Source of the DNA: Pegea sp. RAD2-039
Lineage: Eukaryota; Chordata; Thaliacea; Salpida; Salpidae
Assembly (NCBI GenBank): GCA_034620365.1
Contig: JAQGEQ010000186.1
Coordinates: 1,116,001 to 1,180,000, forward strand
Reading direction: 5' to 3'
Length of the DNA stretch: 64,000 bases
Positions 3,101 through 58,962 of the stretch are shown one piece after another (position 1 is the stretch's first letter; each line of letters opens with the position of its first letter). The notes beneath the pieces were generated by a model, which was not told where the DNA came from, did not search any database, and saw only the letters and a program-made list of their open reading frames with translations. The position numbers were made by a program, and so were the translations under genes.

Positions 3101-6100
3101 TTAAATATCAATTTAGAAAAAGATCCACTTAATGAAGTGGCAAGCTGTGACCATTAAAGAACAGCTGGCTGTCCAAGTTCATCGAATGCAGGACTGTTTG
3201 CCAATATGGACCAGTCCAAACCTCTACCGTGGTTCCAGGTCTTTTCCTACAATATCCAACAATTTACTCAAATTACTGAACATTGTTTAGGTCGTGGTCA
3301 CGTGATGGAATAAACTGCCAAGATTGGTCCAAACAGGACCCACATCACCATCCATTCAGCCCAGATAATTTCCCTGACCATGACTTGTCTAGCAACAACT
3401 GTAGGCGACCCCCCGGTCTACCTACATCTGTCCTGGACATGGAAAAGACCTGGTGTATTACTACTAACCCGGATGTAAAGTGGCAAGATTGTGACGTCAG
3501 CAGGTTGGTCGAGTCCTGGTCGTACGTGATGATGACAAACGGACCTGTTGCAGCTGCCCAGTACCATCCAAGATCGTTTTTGACTCCGTCACTAATCAAT
3601 GGGACACTAATAATGGCCAACAAGAGCTCCCTTTCATATGCCAGTCACGTGGTAACTGCTACACTGGTTATGGTCAAGATTACGAAGGTAAACGCGCGAC
3701 TGATGACGTCATCTAATCATCCACTCTTAGGTGATTTATCTTTTACGGGAACTTCATTTTGTTTGAATTGGAATACGATTGATCCTAATTTACCTGACCA
3801 CAATTACTGTCGTAACTACGAACCACAATACATGAAGCCCTGGTGTTATGTAGCACCAGGAGTTAAACAATATTGTCAAGATCTTATCAAGTGTCCACAA
3901 ACATGTCCGCGTCCCACATTTCCACTGACTGGGTTTGTACCTTCACTGTTATCAGCATGTTTTAACTTCATGAAATGTTGATAGATATAAGTTAAAACAT
4001 GTTGTCTATGGAAGTTCATCTCCTGGTTATTCTATTGGTACTACAATTTTGGTTGATTGTGAACCAGGCTTTCAACCATCTTTTAAACCATCTTACAATA
4101 ACTGTACAAAAGAAGGTTGGTTAGATCGGTTTCTTTCTCAACAACTGATTTATTATCATAGGAATATGGTCACCTGGTTGGCACCATTTTACTTGTAAGA
4201 AGATATTTTGTGGTGAACCACCTGAGTATGAACACCAGCAACTGGTTGCAACTAGCCACCTGTACCATGTTGGTGATCAAGCAACTTATGTATGTGTTGA
4301 TGGTTCATTAATTGGTCGAGATGTGGACCATATATCAATTACTTGTCTTCAAAATGGTCAATGGTCCAAACCGACAAAAACATGTCAAGTTGGTTGTCCA
4401 AGTGGTTGGATACCTTACAAAGATGGTTAATGGTGGTTTTTTTAATGGTTTTTCAACTTTTTTTGTCTATTCTAGATTGTATGCTTGTAAAGGAAAGTTT
4501 ATCTGAATATCGAACCTTCAATGAGGCAACTGAAGAGTGTGAACTTCATAAAAGTTCTCTATTTACTCCTGATAGTAAAGAATCATTTAAAAGTCTTCAT
4601 CATATCATCAACATCTCCACCACCAACCTTCCAATAGGTAAGCGAGTTGCTATAGCAACCAAACAACCTTCGCCTTTCCTAGATACTTTTTATTGGCTTG
4701 GTATTGTCGATAATTCATCGTCATTTACTGAACCAACTAAAAGAAATTGGGTCACTTACCAAACTCACCAACAACTCCAACCACCTCTATTAAGTGGTCA
4801 CCAACAATTTACCAGTTTTAAGCTGAAAAATTTCGGGAATTTTATGAAACCTGGAAACAAAATCACTTTTAATGATTTGTAAGTTTCCAAAATTTCATCT
4901 ACAACTAATTGAAAGTTGACATCGCAGTTGTTTACATGCAAATGTCGATGGTAAAGTTGATGTGTTGTCTTGTAACCATAACAACAACCAACAACTAAAG
5001 TGGGCCTGGATTAACGAAGACCATTTGGTACATGTAGTGACAGGTGAAGTTGTGGACGGTGGTCGGTTTGGTCATTTAATACCATTACTTACCACAGAAA
5101 AATGTTTAAGTTTGAGAAACGACCAGTACCATCTAGCAAGCTGTGACCTGGAAGCACCAGCCCAGAAGTTCACATGTGGTCCTCATAGTCCTAATATATT
5201 ACGTAGCTTGTAAGTACTGACTTGTAATTGGTCCAATTGAACCACCAAGGACCAGAATTTAAACTGTAGGAGTGGTAAACGCATCACCTTACTTGTATCT
5301 GATAACAATGAACACGTGATACAAGCAACAGATGCAACAAGTTACTATTCATCACATTCAAGTAGTATGTGGTTAACATCACCACATGACTCATATCCAT
5401 GTCATTTACGTTACAAACCACCAGGTTTCTATCAATCAATTCCATCTAACATCAAACTTATACTTACTTCTAGAGTCCTACTTCGTTTCACATATGGGAA
5501 ACATCCCAAATTTCCTCAGCTTTACTTCACAACATCAAAAATTCTGTTCTTATCGATATGCTAGAGGTCAAGTCGCGTATGATGATGACGTCACAACAGA
5601 TGGTTGGTTGTCAGTGGTTACTACTGGTCTAAGATGAAATATTCACCAGATATCAAATATTGTAATTGTCAACATGTGATGTCTCGAAAAAGTAATCAAA
5701 TCAAACAAGTGAAGTTAGAAGGTTCAATTTGTGGATTCAACCAATCAGCAACTATAACTGATTGCTCTTCAACTAATCACGTGATCATGTGACTCATAAT
5801 CAATCAATTAAATGTGATGAAGGTTTATATAAAGGTTGTAGCTGATGGTTTATGTCGACGAAATGATGCTTGGATTCTACATCAGCCCCCAAAAACTTGT
5901 ATGTCAATCAAAATTGACCCAACAAGCCACCAACTCGTGCCCCATTTCTGCCTTACTCCTTTGTCGGGTTACATCTGCTTAAAAAAAGCCAGGTAAGCCC
6001 CACACTTTCCACATATCACTCAAGTACGTGTCCACCGTGACAGATTGTCATGTGGAGGGCCACAACTGAGGTCAGGGGTCATCTTGGACTGGCCATCTCA

Positions 6101-9100
6101 TTATCGCCTTGCATTTATCTTTGGTGAAGAAGTTCGAATCAAATGTTTAGAAGGTCACGTGCTTAGCAACCATCGCCAATCAGCAACCATTGTTTGTAAC
6201 CAACGACTCAATTGGATGGTTTGTAATTAGTTGCTAAGCAACAGTAAGCTGAAAGATGATTTTTAGATGAAACGCGAAAGAAGAAATGACGTCATCAACG
6301 TGAATTTCTTTGTCGATGATATAGTAATGCGAGAAGATGAATTGAAAGATCTACGATGCCTCATCTATAACTGCTCTCAACCTCCAACTGTTCCTGGTTT
6401 ACTCCTCACAATAAATCAACAAACCACTAAAGGGGGCCCAAACTCAACTTTTACTTTCGGGACCACTGCCACCTACAAATGTCCTGCTGGTCAGGTCCTT
6501 ATTGATGGACGCAACCATCATAACGTCACATGCTCTACTGGTAACTCATGGCAACCAATTATAGCTCTCTATTGTTATCCGGTGAGTAACTGAACTTCGA
6601 AAAGTCATCTTTTGACGTGATGACGTCATAGTTGAGTTGTCGCTACCCGTCTTTGATTCCAAATAGTGATCTGAAGATTAAAACTTTTGGATTTAATTCA
6701 ACGGCCAGGTACCAATGTTATCCGGGTCACTGGTTGACCAGAGGTCAGGATACTTTGAATATCAGCTGTGGGACAGATGCAAGGTGGGCTGCAAGTCAGT
6801 TAGTCCAACCTTCTGGTCCACGGTCGCTGTTTTTAGATGGTTTCCTGATCCTAAAACGCGAAGCTGCGAGAAGATCACTTGTACGACACCTAGTGGTGAC
6901 TTGTTGCAAAAGTTGAACGCAGAAGAGTTGAGGAAACGCGATTACGCGATTGGGGATCGAATCCATATAAGATGTCGACAAGGATTTCACTTCGACAAAA
7001 ATCTTGTTTCATTCACGTTGACTTGTCAACGCGAAGGTCGATGGAAACCATGGCAACCACATGAGATGCGTTGCTACCCAATTAGATGTCCGCCTCCACC
7101 TATATCGCGTCACCTCACTATTATCGCGTTTGATACACATGATGGAGCGGTTGCTAGGTAACCACAAGCGTCCTTTCTAACTTCTATTCACCACAATAGT
7201 TCGCCAGATATCGATGTCCACGACGTCATTGGATTCGAGGCAGTTTTCGTCTTTTCAATCATCTGCGACACACGTGTCTACTCGTCGATGACGTCACCGG
7301 TGTCGCCCGCTTTCACTCGTCATGCCCGACTGATCAGCAGTTTGTTTGGAAATGGGAAGATCACGTCATGCACGAATCTTCGGCATTATGTTTGACTGCG
7401 AGCGCGATACCAGTCTTCGATGTTCGTATCACTTCGCACGTGATCGTCACGTGTCTAATATCGCGTTTGTGACGTCAGAACGAATTCTTCGATGTCGTAT
7501 TTCGGCCGTGTAATCAGAGTTCGATCTTTCAACGTTGGAGCTGTGACCTCAGCGATCCTCATCACTCTCTTCTTCTTCTTTCACGCGCCCCTTCACCTGC
7601 CTACGTCATCAGCTCGTATGCAAATGAGGTCGCGATGAAACTACAAGTAGCAGGTTGGCGAAGATGTAGGTTTCTGATGATGCTGACCAGTTGGTAGTTT
7701 TTTCCTATTTAGACGTGACCAAGCAACAGTGGTCCGCCCTTGATGTGGCTGGACAGAAAGTTGCTGATGTTTGTCGCTTCAAGCAAGGACAGTTTACGCG
7801 AGATATTGCTTGCAAGTCGGTCGATGACGTCATTGACGCTATCGAATCAGAATTGATTTTGTAGAAATGGAGACTGGCAACCCTCACCTGATACACTAAA
7901 ATGCTTTCCAATCGAATGTGGCCCTGCCCCACATCTTCAAGGCGCCAATTTATTACAGTACTTTGACGCTGTACGCGGTGTGACGTCATCAGCGCGAGTA
8001 GTAGGTGAGACGTGAAAATAGAAAAAAGATGATTAAAATGAAACGATACAGAAATGAAATATGAATTGGGGTTGAGGGCTGATTATTCATGTTTAAGTGG
8101 TCTGACCAATAGACAAGGTCTGGTCCATTTCTCACTTTACTGTCACCATACAGGCGAATGGCAGAAGAGCGCGAGTCTTTTATACGAACAAGTGACCTTT
8201 TTTCAGATTATTTTCTTTTATAATTCGTGTTTTTAGTTAGAAGAAAGTAATTATTGTGAACAAAGTGGTTGTCAGATACAATTGCCCATCAACCACCTAT
8301 CCACTGACCTGTATGTGTCCACTTCTCATTTCAATGTGTCCACTAACTCTTGGAAATATGTCGCCAATATTAACCAGACTTTACGCGTCGAATTTGGAAC
8401 GAAAATCTTTTTGGTGTGTGAAGATGGTTTTTGGGTTACCAGTAAAAACAAGTGAGAACCAACAAGTTGGTGATTTATGCTAATTACTTTCATTGTAGTA
8501 CATTTGGAATGAAGCAAGCGACTATCACATGCAGCAACAATGGAATGTTACAATTGCCGCAAAAAACAGCTGCATTTGCAGGCTGCAAACCTCTGCAATG
8601 TGTTCAACCACAAAATGATTGGATTCCAAATTCGAATCTGATACTTCAACATCAACCAGCAATTTGGTTGTTTCGCTCATTAATCGCTTATCGATGCAAA
8701 CAGGTGGTTGTCATTGGTTACCATGACGTCACACCATCATTTACCACAGGGCTTTTGGTTTGCACCATCACATCAATATTTGGAATCAAGATGCGATGCT
8801 AACGGTAAATGGTCACCATCACCAACCAAACACCGTTGCTTAGCAACCAGATGCAAACAACCTGCTCACGTGGCAAACGCGCGACGAGTCGGAAACGACT
8901 ACGGTGTCAATGCTACTGTAAGTTCTTAACTCGAATAGTTGTCATGGTAACCAATTGACTTGTGGTCCAGGTCACGTACACATGTGTACGTGGTCGAAGA
9001 TTCATCAGTGGCTTACAAATCCAAAAAATCCGATGTGAGGCAGATGGATGGTGGACACCTCAACCTCAAATGTTTCGATGTTTGCTGACGTCATGTCCGC

Positions 9101-10832
9101 CTTTTTATCGTTACCAACATATGCAAATTGATAATGTGGAACATTTAGTCAGTGGTCAGCATTACTATGGTGACCAAGTGGTGGTTACATGTCACCATGG
9201 TTACGTGTTACAACCACAAATAACTGAAGTCACATTTACATGTGGTGAAGATGGTATTTGGTCACCAAATTACCATCTATCTCAACCACTACAATGTTAC
9301 TTCGAATCTTGTACGCCACCTGCTGTACAGCTTACGGATGGTTCACGTCGTGATGACGTCACTAGAAGTTTTGCGCGCGGTGATTACGTCATTTACAAGT
9401 GTCCACCCGGTTTGTACTACAAGCGCACCAAACTGACCGTCAAATCATTAAAATGTGGACCAAGCGATACTTGGCAACCTGTTGCTACGGACCAATTATG
9501 TGTACCACTATCTTGTCCTCGACCACGTATGTTGTCATGACAACTATTAATCACCAAATCACGTGATTTATTTACAGCTATTGTGCAAAGAGCTACAATG
9601 ACGTCATCTCACGATTACAGCTACTTAAGAGAAGTCACCTATGTGTGTGATAGAGGATACAAAGTTGCTGCATCAACTGCTTTCAATCTCACCGCTACAT
9701 GTGGTCCAAAAGCACGATGGAGTCCAGACCCTCATAAAATTCGATGTGTGAAGGTCACGTGTCCTTTCAACACCATCTTTCCAACAAATCTCTTCATCCA
9801 CAATAACCAACCGTGGACTACTTACTTCTATGGTGACGTCATCACGCTTGAATGTGACGATGGTTTGTATATTCAATATCAAGATAATCAAGTGACGTAA
9901 GTTGATAGTGATGATGACGTCATCACTTGTTTGAATTCGATATGTGAATAGAGAGGTGCGCGCGAAAATGACCACGTCATGTGACTTAAATGGCAAATGG
10001 AGCATCGAAACATTTGAAAATATCAATTATTGTATCCAACTGAAATGTAAAGTTCCAAACAATCTACAAATATCAGCTGAGCAGGAACGTACGTGATTGG
10101 TCGATTTAATTTTGTGGTCAGCATCTCTATTTTATTGTTTAGTTCAACTTGAGTATTTACCTGGAAGTAAATATCATATTTCATGTGAAGATGGACAAGT
10201 TCTTTCAACTTATGGTGTTCAAAAGAAGACCATCATATGTGGTGATGATGGTGTGTTGGTTTGATTCCATAAAAGTGAAATAAAATGGAAATATTCAACA
10301 GGAAATTGGGAACCTTTCAATCTTGATACTGATATCGTTTGTGTCTCTTTATATTGTAACGAATTACCTGAAAGTTTATCTGAACAACAACAAAGTATAA
10401 GTGACATCAGTGTTGGAACTCGAATACATTTCACAAATACCAACAATCTATTAGTTGCCTATCAATGTATGCTTGATGGCAAATGGATTCGAGTAACTGA
10501 TCTTAATGAAGCAACTGATACTCGCAGGTTTGATTGTTCATCTTTAGCAATTAAATTACAGATGATATGATAGAGCTAAGAATGGATGTGAAGCTCCAGT
10601 TTTAGATGACAACATCACTTCTAAAGATCAACTTTTACAATGGTATCAAATTGGAACTAGTATTGAACTAATTTGTAAGCCTGGTCATAGGTTTTCTGAT
10701 GGTAATTATTCAGTAGTGATCACTTGCACAAGTACGATGAATAGTTAGTTACTTTACTGTTTCCATCAAATATATTTTGATCTTAGATTTGAATCAATGG
10801 AAACCTTCATGGAGTATATGCAATCGTATCTG
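1..10832 (+). CDS. Large secreted mosaic protein (LDLa/ricin/TSP1/CTLD/kringle/sushi), 3' part, many exons
   Basis: The window opens inside this gene; the stop TGA is at 10,830-10,832. Translated exons give, in order: an LDLa fragment, a ricin-type repeat, a TSP1 repeat, a C-type lectin domain, about six ricin-type repeats, two kringles, two sushi (CCP) modules, a second C-type lectin domain with ricin repeats, then sushi modules to the end with one more ricin block inside. Several joins were checked by phase, for example 1033-1080, 1217-1265, 2171-2219, 3239-3290, 3504-3553 and 3688-3730 as introns. The last module ends WKPSWSICNRI then stop, with no membrane anchor, so this end looks secreted. 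All modules are extracellular, Cys-rich and typical of carbohydrate or protein recognition. I do not know a named family with this order. Exons between about 5.2 and 6.0 kb and 7.2 and 8.6 kb are only partly solved. Two adjacent genes rather than one cannot be excluded. Confidence 0.75.
313..516 (+). other. Ricin-type (beta-trefoil) repeat, first block
   Basis: The reading frame gives a CLQAL segment, then a Cys and an LQIWDC motif, the QxW signature of ricin B-type repeats. A further exon (about 538-780) follows in frame and ends in a Cys cluster (KCICCEK); I could not assign it to a family. Confidence 0.6.
825..975 (+). other. Thrombospondin type-1 repeat
   Basis: The translation shows FSCSKSCGGGIKYIRRSC and then DPCNTQPC. 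That is the CxxxCGGGxxxRxRxC...C..xPC pattern of TSP1 modules, although the usual Trp residues are missing. The same exon runs on to CPKGFYS and a donor at 1033. Confidence 0.7.
1081..1440 (+). other. C-type lectin-like domain 1
   Basis: Exon 1081-1216 reads TFNEALSFCKQYNWSLAAV and then TEELHNFI, the start of a CTLD. The next exon begins at 1266 (phase 1, joined as MYIG-VAED) and carries DGLAVGSWQPW and CWKD. The calcium-binding EPN/QPD and WND motifs are not obvious, so calcium-dependent sugar binding is doubtful. Confidence 0.7.
1530..3067 (+). other. Six ricin-type repeats, probably two beta-trefoils
   Basis: Successive repeats of the Cys-Leu...Cys...Q-x-W type are visible: FCLSAN..., RCLTAIDTNL...NQHW, KCLTHKEG...NQRW, KCLTTYS...KQQW, KCAMPRYF...TFWW, LCIDSLL...SQHW. 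The third joins the fourth through intron 2171-2219 (AG+A gives Arg, then Trp). Six repeats would build two beta-trefoil folds. Ricin-type trefoils usually bind glycans. Confidence 0.65.
3205..3558 (+). other. Kringle domain 1
   Basis: Joining exons across intron 3239-3290 gives YRGSRSW, then CQDWSKQDPHHH, NFPDHDL, NNCR, TWCITTNPDVKWQDCD. A 50-base intron (3504-3553) leads to VSSC, completing the kringle end CDxxxC. The core CQ-W-Q-PH-H and WC-TTNP-W-CD signatures are all present. Kringles are protein- or lipid-binding modules of secreted proteins. Confidence 0.88.
3640..3897 (+). other. Kringle domain 2
   Basis: A short linker with PFICQ precedes CYTGYGQDYEG. Intron 3688-3730 then splits Glu-Gly, and the next exon gives SFCLNWN, NYCRN, KPWCYV, QYC and a closing KC. 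It is a somewhat diverged kringle: the PH-H segment is shortened. Confidence 0.8.
3900..4395 (+). other. Two sushi (CCP) modules
   Basis: CPRPTFPLTG opens the first module, with VDCEPGFQPS in its centre and a split IWSPGW-C end. The second runs from KIFCGEPPEY through YVCVDGSL and ITCLQNGQWSKP to TC. Cys-Cys spacing and the Trp before the last Cys are typical of CCP modules. Confidence 0.8.
4395..5215 (+). other. C-type lectin-like domain 2 followed by ricin-type repeats
   Basis: CPSGWIPYKDG starts the lectin domain. It continues with TFNEATEECELHKSSL and FYWLGIVDNSSSF...NWVTY, a good CTLD match. The next exons show CLHANVDGKVDVLSC...LKWAW and KCLSLRNDQYHLASC, that is, ricin-type repeats. 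This repeats the CTLD-then-ricin order of the first copy at 1081-3067. Confidence 0.65.
5216..6040 (+). other. Unresolved exons of mosaic gene plus a probable sushi module
   Basis: Coding-like frames continue (KRITLLVSDNNEHVIQATDA; YRYARGQVAYDDDVTTDGW), but exon joins and family are unclear. From about 5640 the pattern YCNCQHV...ITDC...IKCDEGLYKG...WILHQPPKTC is compatible with a sushi module. Confidence 0.45.
6045..7165 (+). other. Sushi (CCP) modules, first long array
   Basis: Modules are visible starting at about 6054 (CGGPQLRSG...IKCLEGHVL), 6370 (CSQPPTVPG...YKCPAGQVL), 6635 (CRYPSLIPN...YQCYPGHWL), 6880 (CTTPSGDLL...IRCRQGFHF...GRWKPW) and 7087 (CPPPPIS, continuing after an intron as YRCPRRHW). 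Each has four Cys, a Gly after the third segment and the late Trp. Confidence 0.85.
7200..7860 (+). other. Ricin-type block interrupting the sushi array
   Basis: Frames here give QQFVWKWEDH, then ALCLTASA, then CNQSSIFQRWSCD, then TKQQWSALD, all of the ricin-repeat type. Exon edges are uncertain. The stretch is unusually CpG-rich for this window. Confidence 0.55.
7865..10832 (+). other. Sushi (CCP) modules, C-terminal array, to stop
   Basis: About ten to eleven modules follow. Examples are CGPAPHLQG (7920), CVQPQNDW (8598), CKQPAHVAN (8850), CPPFYRYQ (9095), CTPPAVQL (9310), CPRPR (9515), CPFNTIFP (9760), CKVPNNL (10045), CNELPESL (10355) and CEAPVLDD (10585). Several are encoded by one exon each and others are split mid-module. 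The final short exon at about 10,788-10,832 supplies the closing Trp-Cys and the stop. Confidence 0.85.
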
Positions 10833-16557: not shown

Positions 16558-18661
16558 CTTATATGTGACAAAGTGATACAAATAAACTTTACCACAAAAC
16601 CTGAAAAACAAAAATGTAGTTTTGTGCTTTATTAACAGCTAAGATTTATTCTAAAAACTGCTCTAGTCAAATTTTTGAGTCCTATATAAGATAAATTTTG
16701 AGAATTTAGTTTGTGAATGTATGTATAACTTACAACTAAAGTAATATAAAATTGATGAGGTCTTGTACTAAATCTTCTAATATTTTTTATATTTTTGAAT
16801 AGCAAACTTTAAATATGATTTAATTATCTTGATAGCAAAATTTTACAAGTTTTTATAAGCTTTTCTGTAATAGTTTTACAAATTTTTTGAGTTAATTAAT
16901 GTTTTTGGTTTATTTAGTTTTTTTTTCTAATTTTGAAAGCTTAAAAGATTAAATTCCAAAAATGAGAAGTTTAAAAAATGTATTTTAATTCAAAACCCAT
17001 TTAACAATCTGCTTTCAGAGAATTGTTTTTTCTTTTAAATCTTTGTTTATTTTATTTTCATTTATTTGGGCTTGAAAGTTGTCGTGTTTAGTAAATATAT
17101 TTGGTTGCTTGACTTTGCATAGAAAGAATGTTAATGTTCAATTAACCTTCTGTTTACTTTAGAAAAACTGATCTTTATTAAGCAACATACTTTATAATGA
17201 AACAAATTTAAAAATTATATAGTTTAGTTTATGAAATAGAGTCGCTTTCTTATAGAAAAAATGTAATTTTTCACATGTCGCTTCTATTTGGTTTAGCCTT
17301 TTAGAAATTCAAAAAATTATTAACCGTAAATTTGTTTGTACAATGAACATAGCTAAGGGTAACTTGCTGTTTTAAATCAGTTGTTTTAAATGTGAAATTG
17401 AAAATAACTTGGGCCAATTTCATTGAGTGGATAGTAAAGCTAAAAAAGATTGAGAAATTGTTAAAAGAAATGTTTGTTCGTCACATTTGTAACCCTTTCT
17501 CTAAATATCTTGTTAAATTTGAATGTAAAACCAAAAGAAGTTACGACGTAAATGTTTAATAAATTGTACTACTTTCATTTCATGTTTTTATCAAACTGGA
17601 ATAAATGTTTAACAAGGGTATACGGATATCAACTAAGACTGAGTAAAAAATGTGCAAATTATTAGATCTCTGGTTATGGTTGCTTTTTTAGTAGCCATCC
17701 ACAACATTTTAAAAGCTAGTAATAATTTATTCAAAGTTTGAGTACATGAGCTTTGTTTAGTAACAACCTATATTAGCAGACAGGATATTCTAGTGTTTAA
17801 TGTGTTGTTTTGATATGCTTTATTTTGCATCTACAGAATGGCTAAACAAGAAGAAGTATACAGTCTGTTTCTATACCAAATGCCGTGAAAACAAAACATT
17901 ACTTTACGAGATCATAAAAAAGTAAACTTATAGATTAAAGATGAATGTTAGTTTAGATTTAAAAATACCAACTGGAGCTTGAACTGTTAATCTAACCAGA
18001 TTTGTGTATTATTAAAGTAAATAATATTAAAACCTAATACTACATGAGGTATTTACATGAAAAAGTAAATAGGAAATAAAATACTTACAAGGTAGGGGAA
18101 GAAGTAGAAAAAAATGCTTTCAAAATTGAAGAAATAGCTGTTTAGTTTTAAGTAAAGCACGAATAGTTAGTTGTTTTTAGCAATAGTTGAATCTAATACT
18201 CTAGCGTATTATGTGATAAGATTTTTTGTTATTTTTGACCTGGTATTATTAAATTATTGACATTAGATATTCATAGAGATATAGTTGGGAATGTATTTTT
18301 AGTTTTTATGATTAATGTTATGAAGCATTTTACTTTTGGCATTATAGTTCAAGATTTCCTTATTAAAGCTTAATTTTTTTTTTTATGGTTTACTTTTTAC
18401 AGGGAAGTAAACAATAACTTAAGTAAATGTAATTGATATAAAAGCGTTGTGCCAGTATTAAAAAGAAGTCAACAGGAGTATAATTTAGTTATCGTTTAGA
18501 AATTAATAAAATAGTTTATTTTTGATTACCAAAAGTTTAAAAATAGTCACAAACTTTAATTCGTGTTTTTTATAGTGATTTATTACAACTGATCAAAATT
18601 GAAAATCAACTTCATAAAAAAGATTATTTTGTAAACAAACTAGATTATCTTTTCAGACGAA
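16558..18661. other. AT-rich spacer upstream of fucosyltransferase
   Basis: Nothing with coding character beyond a 16-codon ATG frame at about 17,839 on the plus strand, which I do not call. The splice-like TTTTCAG just before 18,662 suggests a 5' UTR intron of the next gene. Confidence 0.5.
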
Positions 18662-20368
18662 ATGATTACAGCATCAAAAGTCTTAATAGTTATCTTCGCA
18701 AGTTTTTCATTCGTCATAATATATTTAGAATACCAAAAATTATCCACCTCAAGAATTTGCAGCAGTTGGAAGCAAGTTAAAACTCGAAAACAAGATCCTA
18801 ATCAGCTTCTTATACTGAATTGGAAACGTTTATCGAACAACAAAAACCTTCAAGAGAGTTACAGTAGCAATAAAATGTGTAAATGGACTAATGATATATG
18901 TCTTTTACCAAATGCTCATATTGTAGTTTTTTCATATGATGAAATTTATGCTAGAGATATGCCATGGAAATTTTACAGGTACTTGCTAAACTAAGAGTTT
19001 ATCTACTGATGTAAGAATAACACTGTATAATCAACTAAGCAATTCACAGTAATTACTTCACTAATATTTTTAGAGATGAGAAACAGGTTTTTATCTGGAG
19101 AACAGATGAATCTCCTAGTGGAATGATGTCTAACAACTTTGATTTAACAAGCTATAAAAACTTTTTCAATAGGACTATGACACACAAAAGAAACTCAGAT
19201 ATTGTTGTACCTTATGGGTCACGTGATATACTCAAAAGTCAAATTGTTTTTGGTTCAGACGCTGTTGACAAGATACTTGTAAAAAAAAAGGAAGTTGTGG
19301 TGGGTAGCTTGTGATATTCGAAAAACGGTTATAAACTAGTAATAGTATTGACTTTGTAGTTCACTAATTAGTTAAAATCAAACTAGTAAAAATGGTTTGA
19401 ATTTATTTCACACGAATTTTAAAATCAGCTAACATCAGCTTTTGTATTTTTTTTATCAAAGTGGTTATGTAGAACAAATAATAAAACGGTTTACTCAGTA
19501 GTTTTGTATGATTCATCAATCTTAAAAACTAGTGTCACAAACTTTAGTTATATATTATTTAGAAAACTGCAATCTTCAATCATTTACTTAAACCTATTAA
19601 AGCCATTAAAGACATAAATAAATACAAAAATATTCAATTTATTTCATCAAGTTTGTTTTAGATGTTCACGCTTTTCAAATTTCTTACAGCAATAAATTGA
19701 AAAGTATTTAATTTTTCTAGATATGGATAGCAAGCGATTGCTCGTTCACACCAGGAGCAAAGAGAAGATACAAAATTAGTGAAGATTTAATAAAAGCTGG
19801 ATTGAAGCTGGATCGTTTTGGATATTGTTTTGGAAACTCAAATAAATTTCCAAAAAAAGAAAATATCTGCGAAAGCGAAAAGTTACAAACATACAAATTC
19901 TATTTAGCATTTGAAAATTCTTTTCATTGTAGCGATTATATTACTGAAAAGTTCTGGACAAATAGTTTGCGCTGCGGATTGGTTCCAATTGTGTGGGGGC
20001 CTTCTAAATCTGATGTCATTGAAGTTGCCCCAAGAAACTCATTTATTCATTTTGAAGATTTTGACTCAATTGAAGATTTAGTTGATTACATTTCATATTT
20101 AGACAATAATGATAAAGAGTATCGTGAATTTTTCAAATGGAGAGAAAACGGAACCACAATCATTCAAAGCTTTGAAAAAGAAGAAAAATATGATAAGTTT
20201 TCAACTGATCAAGTTTGTGAAGATTTATATAAAGTAAGAACAAAAAGACAAACTATAGAATCGATATACGATAATTTCCTAGCCGGGGAACCCCCTGTAT
20301 GTCTTGAGGTTACTCTCTTTCGTAAATTTGTTGGTTTTATTCGTAAATTGTTTGGAAACTACTTTTAA
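18662..20368 (+). CDS. Alpha-1,3-fucosyltransferase (GT10 family), three exons
   Basis: Exons 18,662-18,978, 19,074-19,299 and 19,721-20,368 join in frame to 396 residues. Residues 6-23 (KVLIVIFASFSFVIIYLE) form a signal anchor, giving the type II Golgi topology of this family, which transfers fucose from GDP-fucose to N-acetylglucosamine in glycans. Family motifs are clear: FFNRTMTHKRNSDIVVPYG (acceptor side), IWIASDCSFTPGAKRRY, GLKLDRFGYCFG, and the donor-binding YLAFENSFHCSDYITEKFW followed by GLVPIVWG and SFIHFEDF. The length is usual for the family. The stem region is short. The exact acceptor linkage cannot be read from sequence. Confidence 0.93.
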
Positions 20369-25870: not shown

Positions 25871-28800
25871 ATGGATGAAACAACTGAAAATAAAGAAGTT
25901 GTTCAAATAGCAACTTTTGTTGTTGATGCCATGCCAGAATCTATTCCCAATATACTAAACAAATTGAAAGGTAGTTTTCTTATTTATTTATATTCCTTAT
26001 TAATCAAGTCATCATTTTTATTCTGAACCATTTTTTTATTAAAGGCATTTTAGAAAAATTAAAGCATGACAAAAAACAATTAAAAATTGCTCAAGAAACT
26101 ATATGGAAATATGATTTATTAAATTGGTGTGTAAGTGTCTTGTGTATGGATCGTATAATCAAGGTAAATCATAATCTAGGTTTTTATTTACAGCTTCTTT
26201 AATTTTAATTAATTTTAAAAAAGCTTTATTATATAAATTACCAATTTTATGTTGATTAAAAATAATGATTATAATTAAATCATATATTTTTAGAAAGATA
26301 CAGATTTCGAAACATTGAGAAATATTGTCAATGTATTATTTGATTGTTGTATCAATATAAATATTGAAGAATCAGAAGAATTTTCGTCGGTTTCATTACC
26401 TCAAGCAGTTACAACAAGCTTACAGTTAATTAGACTAATACAAGATAATACACAGGTACTTAACACTTCTTGTAATGAATTTTAAATTATTATCATCTCA
26501 GGTGTTATTGTAATCTGTTTGTTTTATCTAATAACATGACAACAACCTAGATAAATAATTTATATCTTTTAAAAAGATCAGTTAAAGTTACCTGAAAATT
26601 CAAATCTAAATATTTATAACTTTAATTTAGTGTGTTCAAAATGACTCAGCCTTCTTACTTCAAAACGATCTCTTGTGTTATCTAAACATAATCAGTACTC
26701 AATATCCGTACATCTCCATTCATATTCTCACCTCTAATGATATGCTGAGATTAATTATGGACGACGAAAAACATCAAGCTTTGAGTATAAAAATTATCAA
26801 GATTGTTAAAAAAGCTGTTCAAGCTAATAAGTAAGTCAAGTTTTTGATATTTTTGCTTTTTATATTTTATACAATAGTAGATTTTTTCCAATTTTCCAAA
26901 TATATAATTGATTTGCTTTTTTAAAGAAAAGCTGTTAAGACTGCTTCTTCAAAAAGCATAGAAGTTTTAATGGATGAACTTGTCTACAAGTTGACTTCTT
27001 CATCTGATGAATTGATAGTAAAACATTCAATTGAGTTACTACTATTAATTGCTAACCAACATAAACCTTATAAAACTATTATGAAGAAAAGATACAGGTT
27101 TATTTTAACTTAACTTCATCTCATGTCATTCAGTTGCTGAATTTTAACAGAGGGTTGAAAGCTGTCTTAAAAAGATGGGAAGGTTTGGGAATGGATGGAA
27201 ATATTTTGAATTTGTCAAATATTTTAGAACCAGTGACATTGAAAAATATTCATGATGTTAATTTAGAAGAAAAAAAGAAAGCGGTTGAAACTATTTGGGC
27301 ATATTATCAAGTTAGTTGTATTTCTTGTCACATATCTTTCAAGCCTAATATTAAACGCTTGTTTTGAGCAAAGTCACATTTTGAACGGCTAGGAAATAAA
27401 TGAATCAATTATTTATTGTGCTTTGAACTTATGAAGTCCACGTTTGTTGTTGTTGTTCTAAAGAGTGAAGATAGCTCAGCATACGCTGCTGTCTATTATG
27501 ATCAAAGCGCATGCGCAAACAGGAATGCTCTGTCAACTTCCTACCATCTTAACTGAACCATAAGCAATTAAAAGTTTTAGAAAACTTGTTTGTTCTTTTA
27601 CAATTTCATTAAAAAGATGCAAAATTCTTATCATATGAAGGGTTGGAGAACAAGAAGATCTATATGCGCTCTAGGTCGAGTTGTTCTTAAAATTCAGCGA
27701 CGTTTTCGGTGGAAACAGCGAGAAATTCGTGAAAAGGAAATCGAAAAAAGACTTAAAAAGTTACAAGATCAAATGAAAGTTAGTGCAAGATGTCAACTTA
27801 CTCGGTTTGCAAACGAAAGAAAAATGAAAGTAATTGAAGATACTCCAGCAGGTTTGTAACGTGTAAGCTTTTGATTCTCTAATATTTGTTTATCTTTTTC
27901 TTGAAGATCAACTATTTTATCATCTGGAAAAAGAACGAAATCTCGCAGCTTGTTGCATCCAATCAAATTGGAGAAGCTATAAAGCAAAGAAGTTATATTT
28001 AAAACAGAAAGACGAATTGGTTAAAGACAAGGCCGCCCGTGTACTACAACAAAATGTAAAATATATAAAATAATATATAATTAATAAAACAATTGATTAC
28101 ATTTAAAGTTTTAAAAACCAGTTTAAAAGTTTAACTTCAGTTTGTTCTGTTTGTTTTCAACTTCCTTCTATGAATAATGTGGTGATTGAAGGTTTCTGTC
28201 ATAAAATATTTTTATTTCACAAAATCTAGGTTGTCTTCAAGTATTAGTAATTCTATCTTCCTGTTTCCTTCGTATTATTCTTTGACTTTTGTTTGTCTTC
28301 TTTGGAAGATTAGTAATAATAAATAAGTTTTGATAGCCTTTCAACTTCATGTTATTTATGTTGATTGTTTTTGGAGCATTTGAACACTACAGTTTCTTTT
28401 GTTTTTATAATATTTTATTTATCCAAAAATTCATTCTCATGTTTTTAAAGATAAGAAAATACTTGATGAAAAAATTCCAACGAAATAACGACAAGAAGAA
28501 ACTGAAGTCACAACTAACTTGTTCAAGAATTTTTCCAGAGATTAGTAAAGATGAAAGAAACCAGTTTGAAATTGACATTATGCAGTGGCAAGCAATTCAC
28601 AAAGTTAGTGTTTTATCTTCAACAAACATAACAATTGTAATTGTTTTAATCATTAAAAATTTGTAACTTTAGTTATTTAACGCATGGCTACAGATAACAA
28701 GTTATTCAACCCTTAAAACACAAAAGAATATGATGTAGAAGTAAAAATATATCTTAAGTACCACTATTCAGTATAATTAATGTAGAAAATTAGAAACATT

Positions 28801-29644
28801 TACAAAAGCGTAATTCAGAAATAGAAAATAAATGAAGAAAATGCATCATTTGTTATTAAAATTACTCTAACCACATTTCTTAAATATGTTTTTATAAGAC
28901 CTGATAGAATTTGAGTGATAAATTTTGGAAGAAGATTATATTATGAGTTTGTTTTAGATTAATTTAACATTTTGCTCATTATTTTTAAAATTTATTTATA
29001 TGAATTTTTGAAATTTCAAAACCTTGAATATAATCATCTATAATAGTTTGTCAACAAGACTTTTATAATCACTTCACACTAAAATTTAAACTGAAATAAA
29101 TATCTATTGATGTAAATAACTTGAAGCTTTAGATAAAGACACATAATTATAAATATAATCTTACAATGTATCGTAGAGATTTGGCGTTCTCAATGAAGAT
29201 GTAATTGAAACACATCGTCAAGCACAGCAACAAATTGCTTCATATTACCGTTTGCGTTATAATGAAGAACACGAAGACAGTCATCTAGATGCTATAATAG
29301 CTCGCATTCATCATCAACAAGATCTCTTACAGCGTAGGTTACTTCTTTGATAAAATCATGTCTTTAACATATTTGGAATTTTTCACGGATTTTTTTGTAA
29401 CTTTAAATTTTGGATAGTTACTAACCACGTGGTCACCAACTTATATCTTAACTGATTAATTTTAGATATGCCAACTTTATCCGAAGCAAAAGCTGAAGAT
29501 ATTTACAGGTTATCATCATGTTCTACTGCTGTGCAATTAGCTGCTGAAATTGAACACTCAAAACAAATGAGGTTGTTAACTGTTCCTTGGTGGAAAAAGT
29601 TGCGTGATGAAGAAGAAGTAACAATAGATATTGAACCATGTTAA
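25871..29644 (+). CDS. IQCB1: Nephrocystin-5 / IQ motif-containing protein B1, eleven exons
   Basis: Exons: 25,871-25,970, 26,045-26,163, 26,294-26,455, 26,631-26,830, 26,927-27,097, 27,151-27,310, 27,617-27,851, 27,907-28,055, 28,451-28,603, 29,177-29,333 and 29,466-29,644. They total 1,785 bases or 594 residues, against about 598 in human. The N-terminal half is helical and armadillo-like (AMPESIPNILNKLKG; SIELLLLIANQHKPYKTI). Basic IQ-type segments follow: VVLKIQRRFRWKQREI, CCIQSNWRSYKAKKLY, ARVLQQNIRKYLMKKF. The C-terminus carries VPWWKKLRDEEE, close to the PWWKKLGEE end of the vertebrate protein. NPHP5 acts at the ciliary base, binds calmodulin through its IQ motifs and partners CEP290 in ciliary gating. 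A ciliated animal is implied. Confidence 0.9.
27507..27516. promoter_or_regulatory. GCGCATGCGC palindrome (NRF1-like site) in an IQCB1 intron
   Basis: A perfect ten-base palindrome matching the NRF1 consensus sits in the intron before the first IQ exon, in a locally GC-richer patch. It could mark an internal promoter or enhancer; sequence alone cannot show this. Confidence 0.35.
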
Positions 29645-30537
29645 ATACGTCTTGATTTAATAACTATCTCTTTTTTTGATAATTGTTTTAGTTTATTGTC
29701 AAATCTCATTTAACTCAAAGTATATATTTGCAAATTTAGTGTAAATGGTAATTTGTTAGTTTAATTCAATATTGAATTTTTTGTAACTACACTGTAACCT
29801 TTGATATGCTTGTTGGAAACTTCGTATATAAACATTAAAACTACAGTGTTAAAAATACAGTGAAATACAGAAGACAAGCTTTTTAGGGTTTCTTTAAAGC
29901 AGGGTTTTCTCTAACTTTCAATTGTTTAAGTGGTAAAGATCACCAATCGAAACGATCTACTGCAATATCCTCCCAATAGAGCGATTTCATATCGCGCTTG
30001 CAAGTATCCTTTAAGCGAAGTTCATAATGAAATACGATCCAAAAAGTACTTGGAGTAAAATAACAATTTTGTTTTGATAATTTGAATGGATTTTGTGTGT
30101 CAATTAAAAATGATAAGTTTTTCTTTGAAGAAGTCGATATTTTTTCAAGAATTTTTAAATAAATTTAAACAGTAGGAAAAACGAACAAGGAAATGTTTAC
30201 GTAAGCTACTAAAATAAACATTTTACTATAAGTACCATTAAAGCAGCTACAAAAATATGTTTTTACTTAGATAGTTCTGAGGTAACTTGATATAAGCTTA
30301 TATACCACATTTTAACAGTATTGATGATAATATTAAAGTATTTTTAGTTATAAGCTATTTAACATCACAATTTATGTATACGAATACTATGTGGGTTATT
30401 TGAATAAATTATAAAAATATATATAAATTTATACCATCTATAGACTGATTATTAAAACTAACTTACTATACTGAAAACTCTTATACAAAAATCCCAACAA
30501 TTATTTTTTGTTATCTTAAATTTAGCTGATCGATGAA
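29645..30537. other. Spacer with a GC-richer patch at about 29,925-30,045
   Basis: Mostly AT-rich. The patch includes TGGTAAAGATCACC and GAGCGATTTCATATCGCGC and could be a repeat copy or RNA gene, but I cannot fold it into a known class. Confidence 0.4.
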
Positions 30538-31547
30538 ATGGAAAAGAAAATTTTGATACTAATCTTGATTTTAACTTTCACTTATACAACTGAAGGGAGT
30601 TGTTGGCGGAAATGGTGGCACAAAACAAAAAAGCAAGTCAATTTATAAAATCAATTTTATTTATTCATAGTTTTATTTAAGATAATATGTCATTAAAAGT
30701 TTATTTATGATATCTAGAAAAACATAATTCTATTAAATGATAGATAATTTGGAATAAATTTATTCTATATATTTTGAAAACTAAGTTTAATTTTTGTTGT
30801 CAAAATTTTCAATTATCTTTTAGTTTAAAATTAATTTTGTAAGCAGAAAAGTTTTGCATCCCTTATCTTCTTTGGCTCTGCTCAGAGATGTAGATGTAAG
30901 TAGTCATCTATTTCTAAATTTTCAGTTTCAATTAAAGTCTTAAGAATTTGATAACAAGTTTAGAATTCTTTTCATAAAACCTAGTATTTGTTAAAGCCAA
31001 AATATTGAGTAAATACGAAGTTTTTAAAGTAGTATTATTGATACAAATAAAATAAAAATAATATATTTGATAATCTACTTAATTTTACGAACTTTACAAC
31101 AGACGCTTTTTGATGATTCAAACATGGAGCTTTCATCTGAGATGTTGAAAGGCGATCCAGAAATATTATCAAAAGTAGTTTTTAATTTTGATCTTTAAGT
31201 TTATCTTTATATTTTAGAAAATCAATAAATTATTATTCTAAGTTTTTAGCCACATTTTCATATTTCAATTTTTAGTTAGATATTTTTTGGTATTTCAACC
31301 CACCACTGTAAAACTTTTAGAGAAATTTTAAATATTTTTCCAGTGATTAAAACCTTTGTATTAAAAAGTTGTATTTATCATCAAATATTTTCAAATTAAT
31401 AACTATTAAAAACTGTCGATATTGAGAAGAATAGTTCTAACAACAGAGTCTTTTCACATATTTATTTCTAATTTACAATCTTCTCATTTACAGAAAATCT
31501 TCGATAAAAACAATTTTGATTTATCTGAATTTGGTGGAGATGAATAA
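30538..31547 (+). CDS. Small secreted cationic/acidic peptide precursor, antimicrobial-like, four exons
   Basis: Exons 30,538-30,632, 30,847-30,895, 31,103-31,174 and 31,494-31,547 join in frame to 89 residues. The first intron uses a GC donor (AA|GCAAGT), which is needed to keep phase. The product begins with a hydrophobic signal peptide (MEKKILILILILTFTYTTEG). A strongly basic, Trp-rich stretch comes next (SCWRKWWHKTKKKVLHPL), leading into SSLALLRDVD. The rest is an acidic tail (FDDSN, ELSSE, DLSEFGGDE). Signal, cationic amphipathic block and anionic propiece is the organisation known for tunicate antimicrobial precursors such as styelins and clavanins; the size is also similar. Similarity is of layout only and I claim no sequence homology. 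It could instead be a neuropeptide-like or matrix peptide. Confidence 0.6.
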
Positions 31548-31605: not shown

Positions 31606-31611
31606 AATAAA
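31606..31611 (+). terminator. Poly(A) signal AATAAA of the peptide gene
   Basis: AATAAA is 58 bases after the stop, supporting a short independent transcript. Confidence 0.5.
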
Positions 31612-50998: not shown

Positions 50999-53900
50999 AT
51001 GGGTCGAATCAGCAAATGTAAGTTTAAATAATATTGGTTTGAGCAATTTTATTGATAAATAATATATATGAGATTAAAATCTTATTTCTTTTTCATTTTA
51101 ACCTTTACATTGTTCTCCTACTTTGTATAGAATTATTATTCTGTAGTCACTTTTTGTTATGTTTATTTTATATGATTTATTATGTTTAGCTTTCATTATT
51201 AAACAAATACTTTTTATTTCATTCTAAAATAACTTTTCATAGAATTGAGGTTTATTTAGTCAAGGTCTATTTTCGATTTTTTAACATTTTTAATAATAAT
51301 TGTTTAATATTTTCAAGTTGAAACTTTTCCTGGACTACCCAACACTTCAAGAGCAACTGCTTATGTTCTTGGAGGAGATCCAAAAGGAAAAAATTTTGTT
51401 TATTGCACTGAAAAACATGTCATTGTCAGAGATGTTGAGGTAAAACTCAGCTTCATATCATTACAACTATCAGAACAAATGTTTTATAACTAAGACTTAT
51501 TTTTTGCCATTTTTAAATACTATTTTTCAATTTATGAAAATGAAATAGAATTCAATTTAATAATTTGACATTTTTTTCTGAATTCTTTTAGTATTTTACT
51601 GATTTTATTTACAATAGATTATTTTAATTATAAAATTTATTATCAATTTTAGTTTATATTACTGAAACTTATTCAAAAATATTCAACTTGATTTTTAGGA
51701 CCCTAAAAAAAACTTTGCTTACATTGAACATCAAAAAAGACCAGTTTGTGCAAAGTATTCACCATCTGGATTCTATATGTGTTCTGGTGATGCTGGTGGC
51801 AAAATTCGAATCTGGGATACCACCCAAGATGAACATATATTGAAGGTTAGAGATCAGATTTTGTGAAATTATTTATTTGAAAATTTATTTCTTGTTTATC
51901 TTTATCAATATTGTAAAAATGAATTTTTCTACAAACACATTCAAACTTTAATTTGTACTTTTAGTATGAGTACCATGTCATATCTGGTCCAATCACTGAT
52001 ATAGCTTGGGATGGGGACAGCAAACGTATTGCTGTATGTGGACAGGGAAAGCAGAAGTAAGTTTGATTTATAAATTAGAATTATTCTTTTTAATTTTCTT
52101 TTTAGTTTTGCAAAAGCAATTTTGTGGGACTCTGGATCATCTGTTGGTACGTTAGATAAGATGGAAAAGCACTGCAATTCTGTAGCTATCAAATCTACCC
52201 GTCCATACAGATGTGTTGTTGCTTCTGAAGATTATTCTTCCTACTTCTATCAAGGCCCTCCATTTAAATTAATGAAAACTCTAGGGGTTGGTAGTTAATT
52301 ATCTGAATTAACTTGATTTGCTAATCACTTCTGTCTTATAGGAGGGAACTAATTTTTGTAACTGCGTTAGATTCGCTGCTGATGGTTCAGTAATGGCTTC
52401 TGCTAACTCTGATGGAAATGTTTATATCTATGATGGAAAAACTGGTGACTTTGTAAGTTTTTTTCACTTTCGAAATAGAAAAGATACTAATATGTACAAC
52501 AACTTTGAAAACGATTTATTAAATTTCAAATTGATTTGTCAGATTGGTAAGCTAGATAGAAATGGTGAAAATGCCCATAAAGGAGGCGTTTATAGTTTGG
52601 ACTTTAGCCCAGATAGTAAAGAACTGGTGACTGCTTCTGGTGACAAACATCTTCGCGTGTGGAATGTTGAATCGCGACATATGATTCAGTAAGTTTCGAT
52701 AAAATTCCACAAAATAACATTTGAAAATAGTTTCTTTTATTCATCAACTTTCTATTTAATTAGTTTATAATTTTACTTTTTTACAATTTACTATTTTTAT
52801 GATATAAAATTTCGTTTAGTTTCGATTTAGAAATATTTAGAAGCTGAATTGATGATCAGTTTTATCCAACATCTTTTAATGAAATATTCTTATACAGAGA
52901 AATTAACATGGGCACTACAATTGAAGATCAGCAACTTTCTTGCTTGTGGCAAGGAAACAACATATTTTCTGTGTCTCTTTCTGGTGATATCAAAATATTC
53001 GATCGTTCTGACCTATCTGCATCTCCTCGAGTTTTAACTGGTCATAAAAAGAATATTACAGCAGTTTCAGTTGGTCAAAATGATACCATCTACACAGGCA
53101 TGTACTCAACCACCTGCTGACAATTCATTATTTTGTTTTTTGCTTTACAGCTAGCTTTGATGCTAACATGGTTTGTTGGAATTCTTCCACCGGGGAAGCA
53201 ACCAAATTCACCGGGGTGGGCCACAAGAACAGTGTAAGTGGTTTCGAAGTATGCTTATAACGAGACAGCATCAAGTAAGTGTTGATACAGGTCGTGAAGA
53301 TGCAATATGATGCCGCCAATAACCAACTGATTACTATCAGCATTGATAACACTTTACGATACACGCCATGTGATGGAACTACTTTTACACCTGAAGACTC
53401 CGTTGCTTTGAACTCTCAGCCTTCATCACTATCATTTGTGGATTCTACTCAATATATTATCATTGGTTGTGAAGAATCGGTAAAATTTGTGTGTTATAAA
53501 ATGGTTTAATTTTTAAATGGTTCAAATTAATTAGAAACAAATTATTACGTAAACAACGTCAGCTAGTCCACCTTCCTGCTAACTTTATTACACTAAGATT
53601 TTTATTAAACAAGTTTTGTTTGATTCAAATTTATTCTTGCCCAGATTAATTTAGTGAAAGGCAAAAAAATAGTGGACAGCAAAAAATGGAACAAAGAAGC
53701 CTTCCCAGTTCGTGTCAGCTTGAGTTGTAACAATCAAGTTGCTGTTACTGGAGTGGTAAGTGGCTGTTTTGAAGTAGTTGATGACACTTAACTACTTGTC
53801 ATCAAATGAAACTTTCCAACTTTTTAGCATTCAGCGGTTGGCGGTGTTGAAAAGCATGAAGTTGAAATATTCCAAGTTGTTGATGATAAAATTGTTCCAA

Positions 53901-54444
53901 ATACTGATGTGACAAAATTAACTGGTTTTAAACATGTCGCTGAGCTACAATACTCGCCTGATGGTGCTCGACTAGCTGTAGCTAATCAGAAAGAAGTTCG
54001 TGTTTATGAAGTTGCTTCTGGCTATGAGGTAAGTAATTGTTATTATAAAATATTTGATTGTTGATATTATTGTTGATCAGAATCCGAAAGTGATGTCAGG
54101 TATTTCAACTCGAGTTACTGGAATGGCTTGGGCTCCTGATAATCGACATCTCGCGACTTTCAGCATCGATTCATCGATTACTATTTGGGATGCTATCGAA
54201 GGCAAAAATATTGCTCAAATCTCAAGTAAGACTTATTTTTTCAATGATGTTATATTTTAATAATATTATTTATTAGCGAGGTGATCTTTTCAGGCAACCT
54301 CTTTCACGTTTATTGTAATCAACAAATCTTTTTTTAGACTCACATGCTAAAGCTAATGTCAGTGATCTTGCTTGGTTAAAAGAGGATGTAGTTGTGTCTG
54401 TTGGTAGTGACTGTGCCGTGTCTCAATGGAAGATCACTTTTTAA
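50999..54444 (+). CDS. WDR1: Actin-interacting protein 1 (WD repeat protein 1), fourteen exons
   Basis: Exons: 50,999-51,017, 51,318-51,439, 51,699-51,845, 51,965-52,056, 52,106-52,286, 52,342-52,452, 52,543-52,688, 52,898-53,097, 53,151-53,233, 53,291-53,479, 53,645-53,755, 53,828-54,028, 54,081-54,225 and 54,338-54,444. They give 617 residues (human about 606). Family signatures are strong: [33 protein letters not shown] with [49 protein letters not shown] and the end [12 protein letters not shown]. The protein folds as two seven-bladed WD propellers and promotes disassembly of cofilin-decorated actin filaments in the cytoplasm. Exon 8 ends at a GC donor (CAG|GCATGT at 53,098), required by phase and by the conserved Tyr-Thr-Ala-Ser join. 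The first exon has only six codons plus one base. Confidence 0.95.
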
Positions 54445-58183: not shown

Positions 58184-58219
58184 ATGCCACTTAAAACATG
58201 GAAAACCCTGAAAAACTAA
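58184..58219 (+). promoter_or_regulatory. Upstream ORF overlapping the LEM-like start codon
   Basis: An ATG 14 bases upstream opens an eleven-residue frame (MPLKTWKTLKN) that ends after the main ATG in another frame. If the transcript starts upstream of it, this would reduce initiation on the main frame by leaky scanning. Confidence 0.4.
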
Positions 58220-58962
58220 CTGTAGCAAAGTTAATTAGGGTACTGAAAGATAATGGTGTTCAAATTTCGAAGCGAAGATATTTGAAGAGTTATTATGTTG
58301 ATCTATATCGTAAACACATTTTGAAATCTGCAGAATTTTCGTCTGAAGAAGATGAAAAAGATGATCTGAAGAACAAAGAAAAGCTCTCTAATAATGATTT
58401 GAGTCCTGAACCAGTTCTAGAAAGTACTAAGCGTTGTAATCTGGTGAAAATACAAGATTCATTAAACGAAGATAGTAAAAGGTCTGCTGGTTTTAGTGAT
58501 GGTGAATGTGACCTCCAACCAGTTGTGAGATTAACCATATTGAATGATATTGAAAAGTACAACTTAAGAAGTTGTCAAGTTGAAAGGGAAAGAAAAAAAC
58601 TGAACAAATCAGAAAATGTTAATTCTAAAAAAGAATTTAATTCTATAAAAGATAATATTGTGACCACCAACACTCCCAATGAAGATCATGTGATAAATGA
58701 ATCATTTGAATATGAAAAAGTGATTGCAGAAGAACAAATTTCTATACCATCTGCTCGAAAACGTAATGTTGCTGCATTTACGGCAAAAACAGAAGATACT
58801 CCAAAGGTTAAGTTGAATAGCTCTGACTTTTCAGTGTGTGGAAGTATAAGGAAATTTATTTTCTTTCTATTTATTATCATTATAACCTTTTTAATGTTTA
58901 TTTTAATTCATGATGCTCTGGAAATGTATGCTAAGGAGATGGAAATGAATATTTCCAATTAA
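58198..58962 (+). CDS. LEM-like domain inner nuclear membrane protein (LAP2/emerin-like)
   Basis: A single coding exon of 254 residues follows a TTTTTTCAG acceptor. Residues 6-45 (KLTVAKLIRVLKDNGVQI, then YLKSYYVDLYRKHILKS) fit the LEM-like fold seen at the N-terminus of LAP2, where LTKDKLKxxLxxNxV and YVQLYLxHL occupy the same places. LEM-like domains bind DNA, and LEM domains bind the chromatin protein BAF. The middle is polar and acidic with many Ser and Asn. One C-terminal membrane helix lies at about 220-242 (FIFFLFIIIITFLMFILIHD), followed by a short luminal tail, as in tail-anchored inner nuclear membrane proteins. Identity as LAP2 rather than emerin or otefin is uncertain. Confidence 0.72.
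   Translation: MENPEKLTVAKLIRVLKDNGVQISKRRYLKSYYVDLYRKHILKSAEFSSEEDEKDDLKNKEKLSNNDLSPEPVLESTKRCNLVKIQDSLNEDSKRSAGFSDGECDLQPVVRLTILNDIEKYNLRSCQVERERKKLNKSENVNSKKEFNSIKDNIVTTNTPNEDHVINESFEYEKVIAEEQISIPSARKRNVAAFTAKTEDTPKVKLNSSDFSVCGSIRKFIFFLFIIIITFLMFILIHDALEMYAKEMEMNISN

Follow-up and report, generated by a model that had tools for sequence, protein, structure and literature searches.

Organization of the candidate gene

Four short exons of 95, 49, 72 and 54 nt on the forward strand of the window (the whole stretch of 64,000 nucleotides that was analyzed) can be joined to a frame of 270 nt, and translation of the joined exons gives a precursor of 89 amino acids. An 89-residue, four-exon precursor at this place had already been proposed in a sequence-only reading, with the layout signal peptide, Trp/Lys-rich cationic block and strongly acidic C-terminal tail. 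The precursor could be rebuilt from the same exons and all three parts of the layout are present in the sequence. The features of the locus are as follows:

30506 to 30525, + strand: possible acceptor of a 5' UTR splice or of a spliced leader, 12 nt upstream of the ATG (weak, score 3.7)
30538 to 30632, + strand: exon 1, signal-peptide-like residues 1-20, then SCWRKWWHKTK, with which the Trp/Lys-rich block begins
30633 to 30846, + strand: intron 1, GC donor (AAA/GCAAGT, score 7.5) and AG acceptor (score 5.7)
30847 to 30895, + strand: exon 2, remainder of the cationic block (KKVLHPLSSLALLR), then DVD as the predicted cleavage place
30896 to 31102, + strand: intron 2, GTAAGT donor (score 8.5) and weak acceptor (score 2.0)
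31103 to 31174, + strand: exon 3, acidic propiece
31175 to 31493, + strand: intron 3, weak GTAGTT donor (score 3.8) and strong acceptor (score 10.9)
31494 to 31547, + strand: exon 4, last part of the acidic propiece, then the stop codon
31606 to 31611, + strand: AATAAA, possible poly(A) signal, 59 nt past the stop

In a simple-rule signal scan residues 1-20 show a basic start, a long hydrophobic run and small residues at the cleavage point, and, judged by simple rules alone, no further membrane span follows the signal peptide. It is quite likely that the predicted product is secreted. If a second cut precedes Asp46, residues 21-45 would form the Trp/Lys-rich block with a net charge of +7 and three Trp, and residues 46-89 the acidic tail with a net charge of -9 over 44 residues. 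Cys22 is the sole Cys after the signal and would be residue 2 of the predicted mature peptide. A poly(A) signal had also been reported behind the gene. AATAAA is indeed found at 31606, but this is weak evidence, as the hexamer is often expected in such AT-rich DNA, and further copies lie at 31659 and at 31224 (inside intron 3).

Several other genes were recognized in the window. A GC-richer stretch at 640-10000 on the + strand (up to 46% GC, versus about 23-28% around the candidate) carries ricin-type lectin-like, kringle and sushi domains and possibly belongs to a single large gene or to several, of secreted or complement-like type. A fucosyltransferase (glycosyltransferase family 10) gene is located at 18644-20368 (+), and an IQ-motif (calmodulin-binding) gene at 27581-29644 (+) apparently ends about 0.9 kb upstream of the candidate on the same strand. 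An operon with the IQ-motif gene was considered and rejected, because the gap from 29644 to 30538 far exceeds the limit of under 100 bp given for Ciona operons in the accessible text of PMC2760879. Neither Rfam nor a tRNA scan gave a match in the window.

Splice sites and alternative gene models

Splice sites were scored with a matrix based on 20 introns of the WDR1 and pyruvate kinase genes in the window, which were placed by eye; the WDR1 introns of this training set were checked via the translated joined product, the pyruvate kinase introns by eye only. On this scale the acceptor of exon 3 (2.0) is weaker than any of the 20 training acceptors, of which the lowest scores 4.4. The donor of exon 3 (3.8) lies below 19 of the 20 training donors. 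The candidate acceptor upstream of the ATG likewise scores lower than every training acceptor.

The GC donor of intron 1 had been described as having a full GCAAGT consensus. On the intron side the GC consensus is complete, but the exon side ends in AAA and not in AG. The WDR1 gene in the window (51965-54444), whose joined product is open throughout and aligns over its full length with WDR1 of other animals, has a GC-AG intron at 53098-53150 (+; ACAG/GCATGT), while its other nine introns that were read are GT-AG. For Ciona, 556 of 113,879 introns are given as GC-AG in the accessible text of PMC2760879. With GC-AG introns in WDR1 and in Ciona, a GC donor is plausible for the candidate as well. 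The frame is, however, not closed by this donor only, as had been claimed, since the GT donor at 30637 together with the acceptor at 30824 also gives a closed frame (98 aa), although with a lower score. The GC donor is the best, yet not the sole, route to a closed frame.

In total, exon 1 allows 157 spliced completions; 47 of them reach 75 residues or more, among which 15 are acidic-tailed. Among these 15 in-frame models the 89-aa model has the top splice sum (36.1). The alternative models include:

90-aa model, + strand: acceptor at 30844, splice sum 33.4
98-aa GT-AG model, + strand: donor at 30637, acceptor at 30824, splice sum 30.3
79-aa three-exon model, + strand: stop at 31198, splice sum 21.8

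The alternative sites of the 98-aa model score 2.9 (donor 30637) and 2.7 (acceptor 30824). The codons added in the 98-aa form (-2.9 bits) look non-coding, and those added in the 79-aa form score -1.7 bits. When a stricter donor cut-off is applied and an acidic tail is not required, a 60-aa model with a third exon of 25 nt reaches a splice sum of 41.4 and therewith lies above the 89-aa model; the 89-aa model is left out at this cut-off of 3.5, which sits just above the exon 3 donor (3.48 in a second scoring). Read without splicing, exon 1 encodes a peptide of 36 aa with the stop just past the donor.

Chance expectation and coding signal

All criteria of the chance tests were fixed after the candidate had been seen. 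A scan for a signal peptide followed by a net charge of at least +5 in the next 14 residues finds two sites in the window and three in total in 25 shuffled windows; the second site in the window, at 18662, is the membrane anchor inside the fucosyltransferase gene. When three Trp are required in addition, one site is found in the window and none in the 25 shuffles. With slightly relaxed criteria, the signal/cationic scan gave no site in 180 kb of other DNA from the same genome. The shuffled windows give 0.12 sites per 64 kb, which scales to about 200 exon-1-like sites in the 105.7-Mb assembly (387 contigs).

Given exon 1, completions of at least 75 residues are common and occur in 234 of 400 shuffles and in 143 of 238 joins to other DNA of the window. 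Acidic-tailed completions of at least 75 aa were obtained in one of the 400 shuffles and one of the 238 joins, and none of them equals the real splice sum. In a first splice null with the donor cut-off at 3.5 the real sequence was likewise without an acidic-tailed model; the null was rerun with cut-offs that admit the exon 3 donor.

Codon scores were trained on 4695 nt, which include the ORF 58195-58962, without strong family match, and a zinc-finger ORF matched over a small part only; the sample for the nulls is presumed non-coding. The four exons together score +18.4 bits, a value that 11 out of 2000 non-coding sets free of stops also reach. Individually, exon 2 (+5.1 bits), exon 3 (+8.0 bits) and exon 4 (+9.1 bits) are equalled by 44, 32 and 16 of 1000 nulls, respectively, and exon 1 (-3.9 bits, reached by 514 of 1000 nulls) is not coding-like. 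The arrangement at this locus is probably more than chance.

Search for related sequences

No database family had been claimed for the precursor, and in agreement with this none was matched in the protein database (two word-sharing candidates, none at E ≤ 10), in the PDB (no match) or in Pfam (no family). A protein search of the own genome at E ≤ 10 gave four matches, all of them exons of the candidate gene, and the DNA of exon 1 had a single match, which is itself. A degenerate codon pattern for WRKWW gave three matches in the genome and no paralogue: the candidate itself, another frame of a fibronectin-type-II-like sequence and a place with stops close on both sides. In the fibronectin type II-like sequence (G000:C32, around 1142487; judged by eye) the exact stretch of 15 bases encoding WRKWW is found again in the other frame. 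Because the protein search requires shared five-residue words and similar length, fast-evolving relatives could escape it. That no relatives were found is in line with a rapidly evolving defence peptide.

As a control, the WDR1 protein of the window was used, which confirms that the database reaches tunicates: among named species it matches Clavelina and Phallusia (both 45%) and Ciona intestinalis (42%) best, and also five further database entries at 55-75%. In a tree of 19 rows, including 18 hand-chosen proteins of the 120 listed, the window sequence groups with the five entries of 55-75% (support 100/100), and this group is nested in a clade that also comprises the ascidians and one further entry (100/100). 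The WDR1 matches, this tree and the glycoside hydrolase gene described below identify the host as a tunicate. The related entries stem from contigs of 2-3 kb, probably transcripts, of sequence-read and metagenome collections, and a pelagic host such as a thaliacean is possible. For COX1 no match was obtained in the assembly.

Regarding regulation, no support was obtained for control of the NF-κB type: NF-κB-like sites are absent between 22438 and 37658, and the whole window contains 34 matches at up to one mismatch versus 28.5 expected. Two Ciona genes of the linear cationic antimicrobial peptide kind are likewise without an NF-κB site according to the accessible text of PMC7387483. A limited literature search on Thaliacea, including the accessible part of PMC5465252, yielded no description of a thaliacean antimicrobial peptide.

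Elsewhere in the assembly a gene of glycoside hydrolase family 6 was noticed (G000:C14:72994-76218), in which a hydrophobic stretch precedes the catalytic part; the family match reaches 27.5 bits (cut-off 27), and 35 bits with the longer frame. Among animals, glycoside hydrolase family 6 is not known outside the tunicates.

Physical properties of the predicted peptide

The published screen for antimicrobial peptides in Ciona, as given in the accessible text of PMC7387483, selected precursors of 50-100 residues with a signal peptide, no further membrane span and no Cys after the signal. The cationic segment of 18 residues had to have a hydrophobicity of 0-0.6, a hydrophobic moment of 0.1-1.0 and a charge of 3-10, and the anionic segment a hydrophobicity of -0.7 to 0.4, a moment of 0-0.5 and a charge of -10 to -3. 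Our code for hydrophobicity and moment reproduces the published values for seven of seven Ciona peptides in the table of this paper. Of the filters of the paper, which also include residue-count limits, secondary structure and aggregation, the numerical thresholds for hydrophobicity, moment and charge were applied to the candidate. Residues 21-38 (hydrophobicity 0.45, moment 0.50, charge +6) lie inside the published ranges for the cationic segment, and residues 46-63 (hydrophobicity 0.32, moment 0.22, charge -6) inside those for the anionic segment. Since 6.3% of the shuffles of the 18-mer of residues 21-38 reach the same moment, amphipathicity alone is weak evidence. The Pro in the cationic block would bend a helix.

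With regard to known motifs, the 89 residues contain no KHK motif, and no amidation Gly follows the cationic block, where Asp46 comes next. Also a Gly before a basic pair, which is a feature of amidated neuropeptides, and a repeated peptide are absent from the 89 residues.

Proposed function and alternative explanations

From its sequence the locus is very likely a real gene. We lean towards regarding it as a four-exon tunicate gene, of which no second copy was found, for the precursor of a secreted linear cationic antimicrobial peptide, and an antimicrobial activity of the predicted peptide appears reasonably likely. In such a precursor, signal peptidase would cleave after residue 20, and the acidic tail would neutralize the cationic block during storage, probably in granules of blood cells or gut cells. 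By analogy to styelins and clavanins, a protease may then cut just before Asp46. The released Trp/Lys peptide of about 25 residues would lie helical on bacterial membranes, insert and break them, and the single Cys may join two copies, as in dicynthaurin and halocidin. If this is true, an orphan sequence would be added to the antimicrobial peptides of tunicates, and it would suggest that the layout of signal, cationic block and acidic tail is conserved while the sequence is not. More speculatively, the gene might belong to a new family of defence peptides restricted to one tunicate lineage, possibly a pelagic one; its peptides would be single-Cys and Trp-rich, stored with an acidic partner segment, forming a covalent dimer and missed by screens that discard Cys; this we consider possible but rather unlikely.

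The evidence from exons, codons and splice sites is silent on function, so that a real secreted peptide gene might also serve another role, as neuropeptide, hormone, adhesive or tunic peptide. The basic runs KTKKK and SKK could be cut by convertases, which would lead to different products. However, neither a repeated peptide nor a basic pair preceded by Gly occurs in the 89 residues, the charges are arranged as in antimicrobial precursors and both charged regions fall within the published thresholds; such a role is unlikely, though not negligible. A different doubt concerns the product: the gene could be real and encode the unspliced 36-aa peptide, the 98-aa GT-AG form or the 79-aa form with three exons, or a product in which exons 3 and 4 are different ones. 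All these forms are open in frame, the 60-aa form tops all splice sums under the stricter cut-off and the three-exon form would go well with the AATAAA at 31224. Nevertheless, the codons that the 98-aa and 79-aa forms add have negative scores, in contrast to the +8.0 and +9.1 bits of exons 3 and 4, and the splice sums rank the 89-aa model first among the 15 with an acidic tail; another product is improbable.

The least probable explanation is that there is no gene at all, i.e., that a decayed gene, or open frames arranged by chance in AT-rich sequence, were read as one. It would agree with the absence of relatives and paralogues from the databases and the genome searched, with the roughly 200 exon-1-like sites expected genome-wide and with the fact that the window was picked by a reader seeking such features. 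Against it stands the rate of acidic-tailed completions, about one in 400 or one in 238 nulls, at which chance would be expected to give roughly one such case or fewer per genome, even before Trp is required. In addition, exons 2-4 are coding-like in their codon composition.

Comparison with known tunicate antimicrobial peptides

For Ciona, the accessible text of PMC7387483 describes an anionic C-terminal part in 17 of 22 antimicrobial candidates, with the order signal, cationic block and anionic part. In its length range (89 aa) and in the order of its segments the candidate is like the Ciona precursors Ci-MAM, Ci-PAP, KH.S921.1 and KH.S1531.4 of this paper. According to the same text, basic cleavage motifs are absent at the boundary of the cationic and anionic parts of the Ciona precursors and an acidic residue directly follows the cationic block, as Asp46 does in the candidate; in styelins and clavanins cleavage takes place just before acidic residues. 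In contrast to the precursors admitted by the Ciona screen, which excludes Cys, the candidate has Cys22, and the screen would for this reason have dropped it. If the candidate is indeed such a precursor, this would point to a blind spot, as every Cys-containing candidate was thrown out. In alignments with 13 published peptides and nine Ciona anionic parts, KH.S1531.4, one of nine Ciona peptides compared, gave the best result, which is equalled by 26 of 1000 shuffles and is not significant over 22 comparisons; none of the nine anionic parts aligns with the candidate above chance.

Dicynthaurin and halocidin, which are described as disulphide dimers in the accessible parts of PMC8719109, PMC10608444 and PMC2866484, resemble the candidate in having one Cys in a short cationic peptide, which in their case is helix-forming. 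Their Cys is located mid-peptide, whereas that of the candidate is residue 2, and these two peptides are not Trp/Lys-rich. No sequence similarity to the candidate was detected for either of them (626 and 870 of 1000 shuffles, respectively, do as well).

Styelins and botryllin were compared by their described features, as given in the accessible parts of PMC8659048, PMC9966394 and PMC8719109. Like the candidate they consist of a signal, a cationic mature peptide and a C-terminal pro-piece, and they have a Trp near the mature N-terminus. Differences are the KHK motif shared by styelins and botryllin (PMC9966394) and the amidation Gly of styelins (PMC8659048), both of which the candidate does not have, as well as the length of the propiece (26 residues in styelins versus 44 in the candidate) and of the botryllin precursor (158 aa versus 89 aa). 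Although it does not appear to belong to any named family, the candidate, as far as can be judged from these comparisons, resembles the ascidian precursors of linear cationic antimicrobial peptides.
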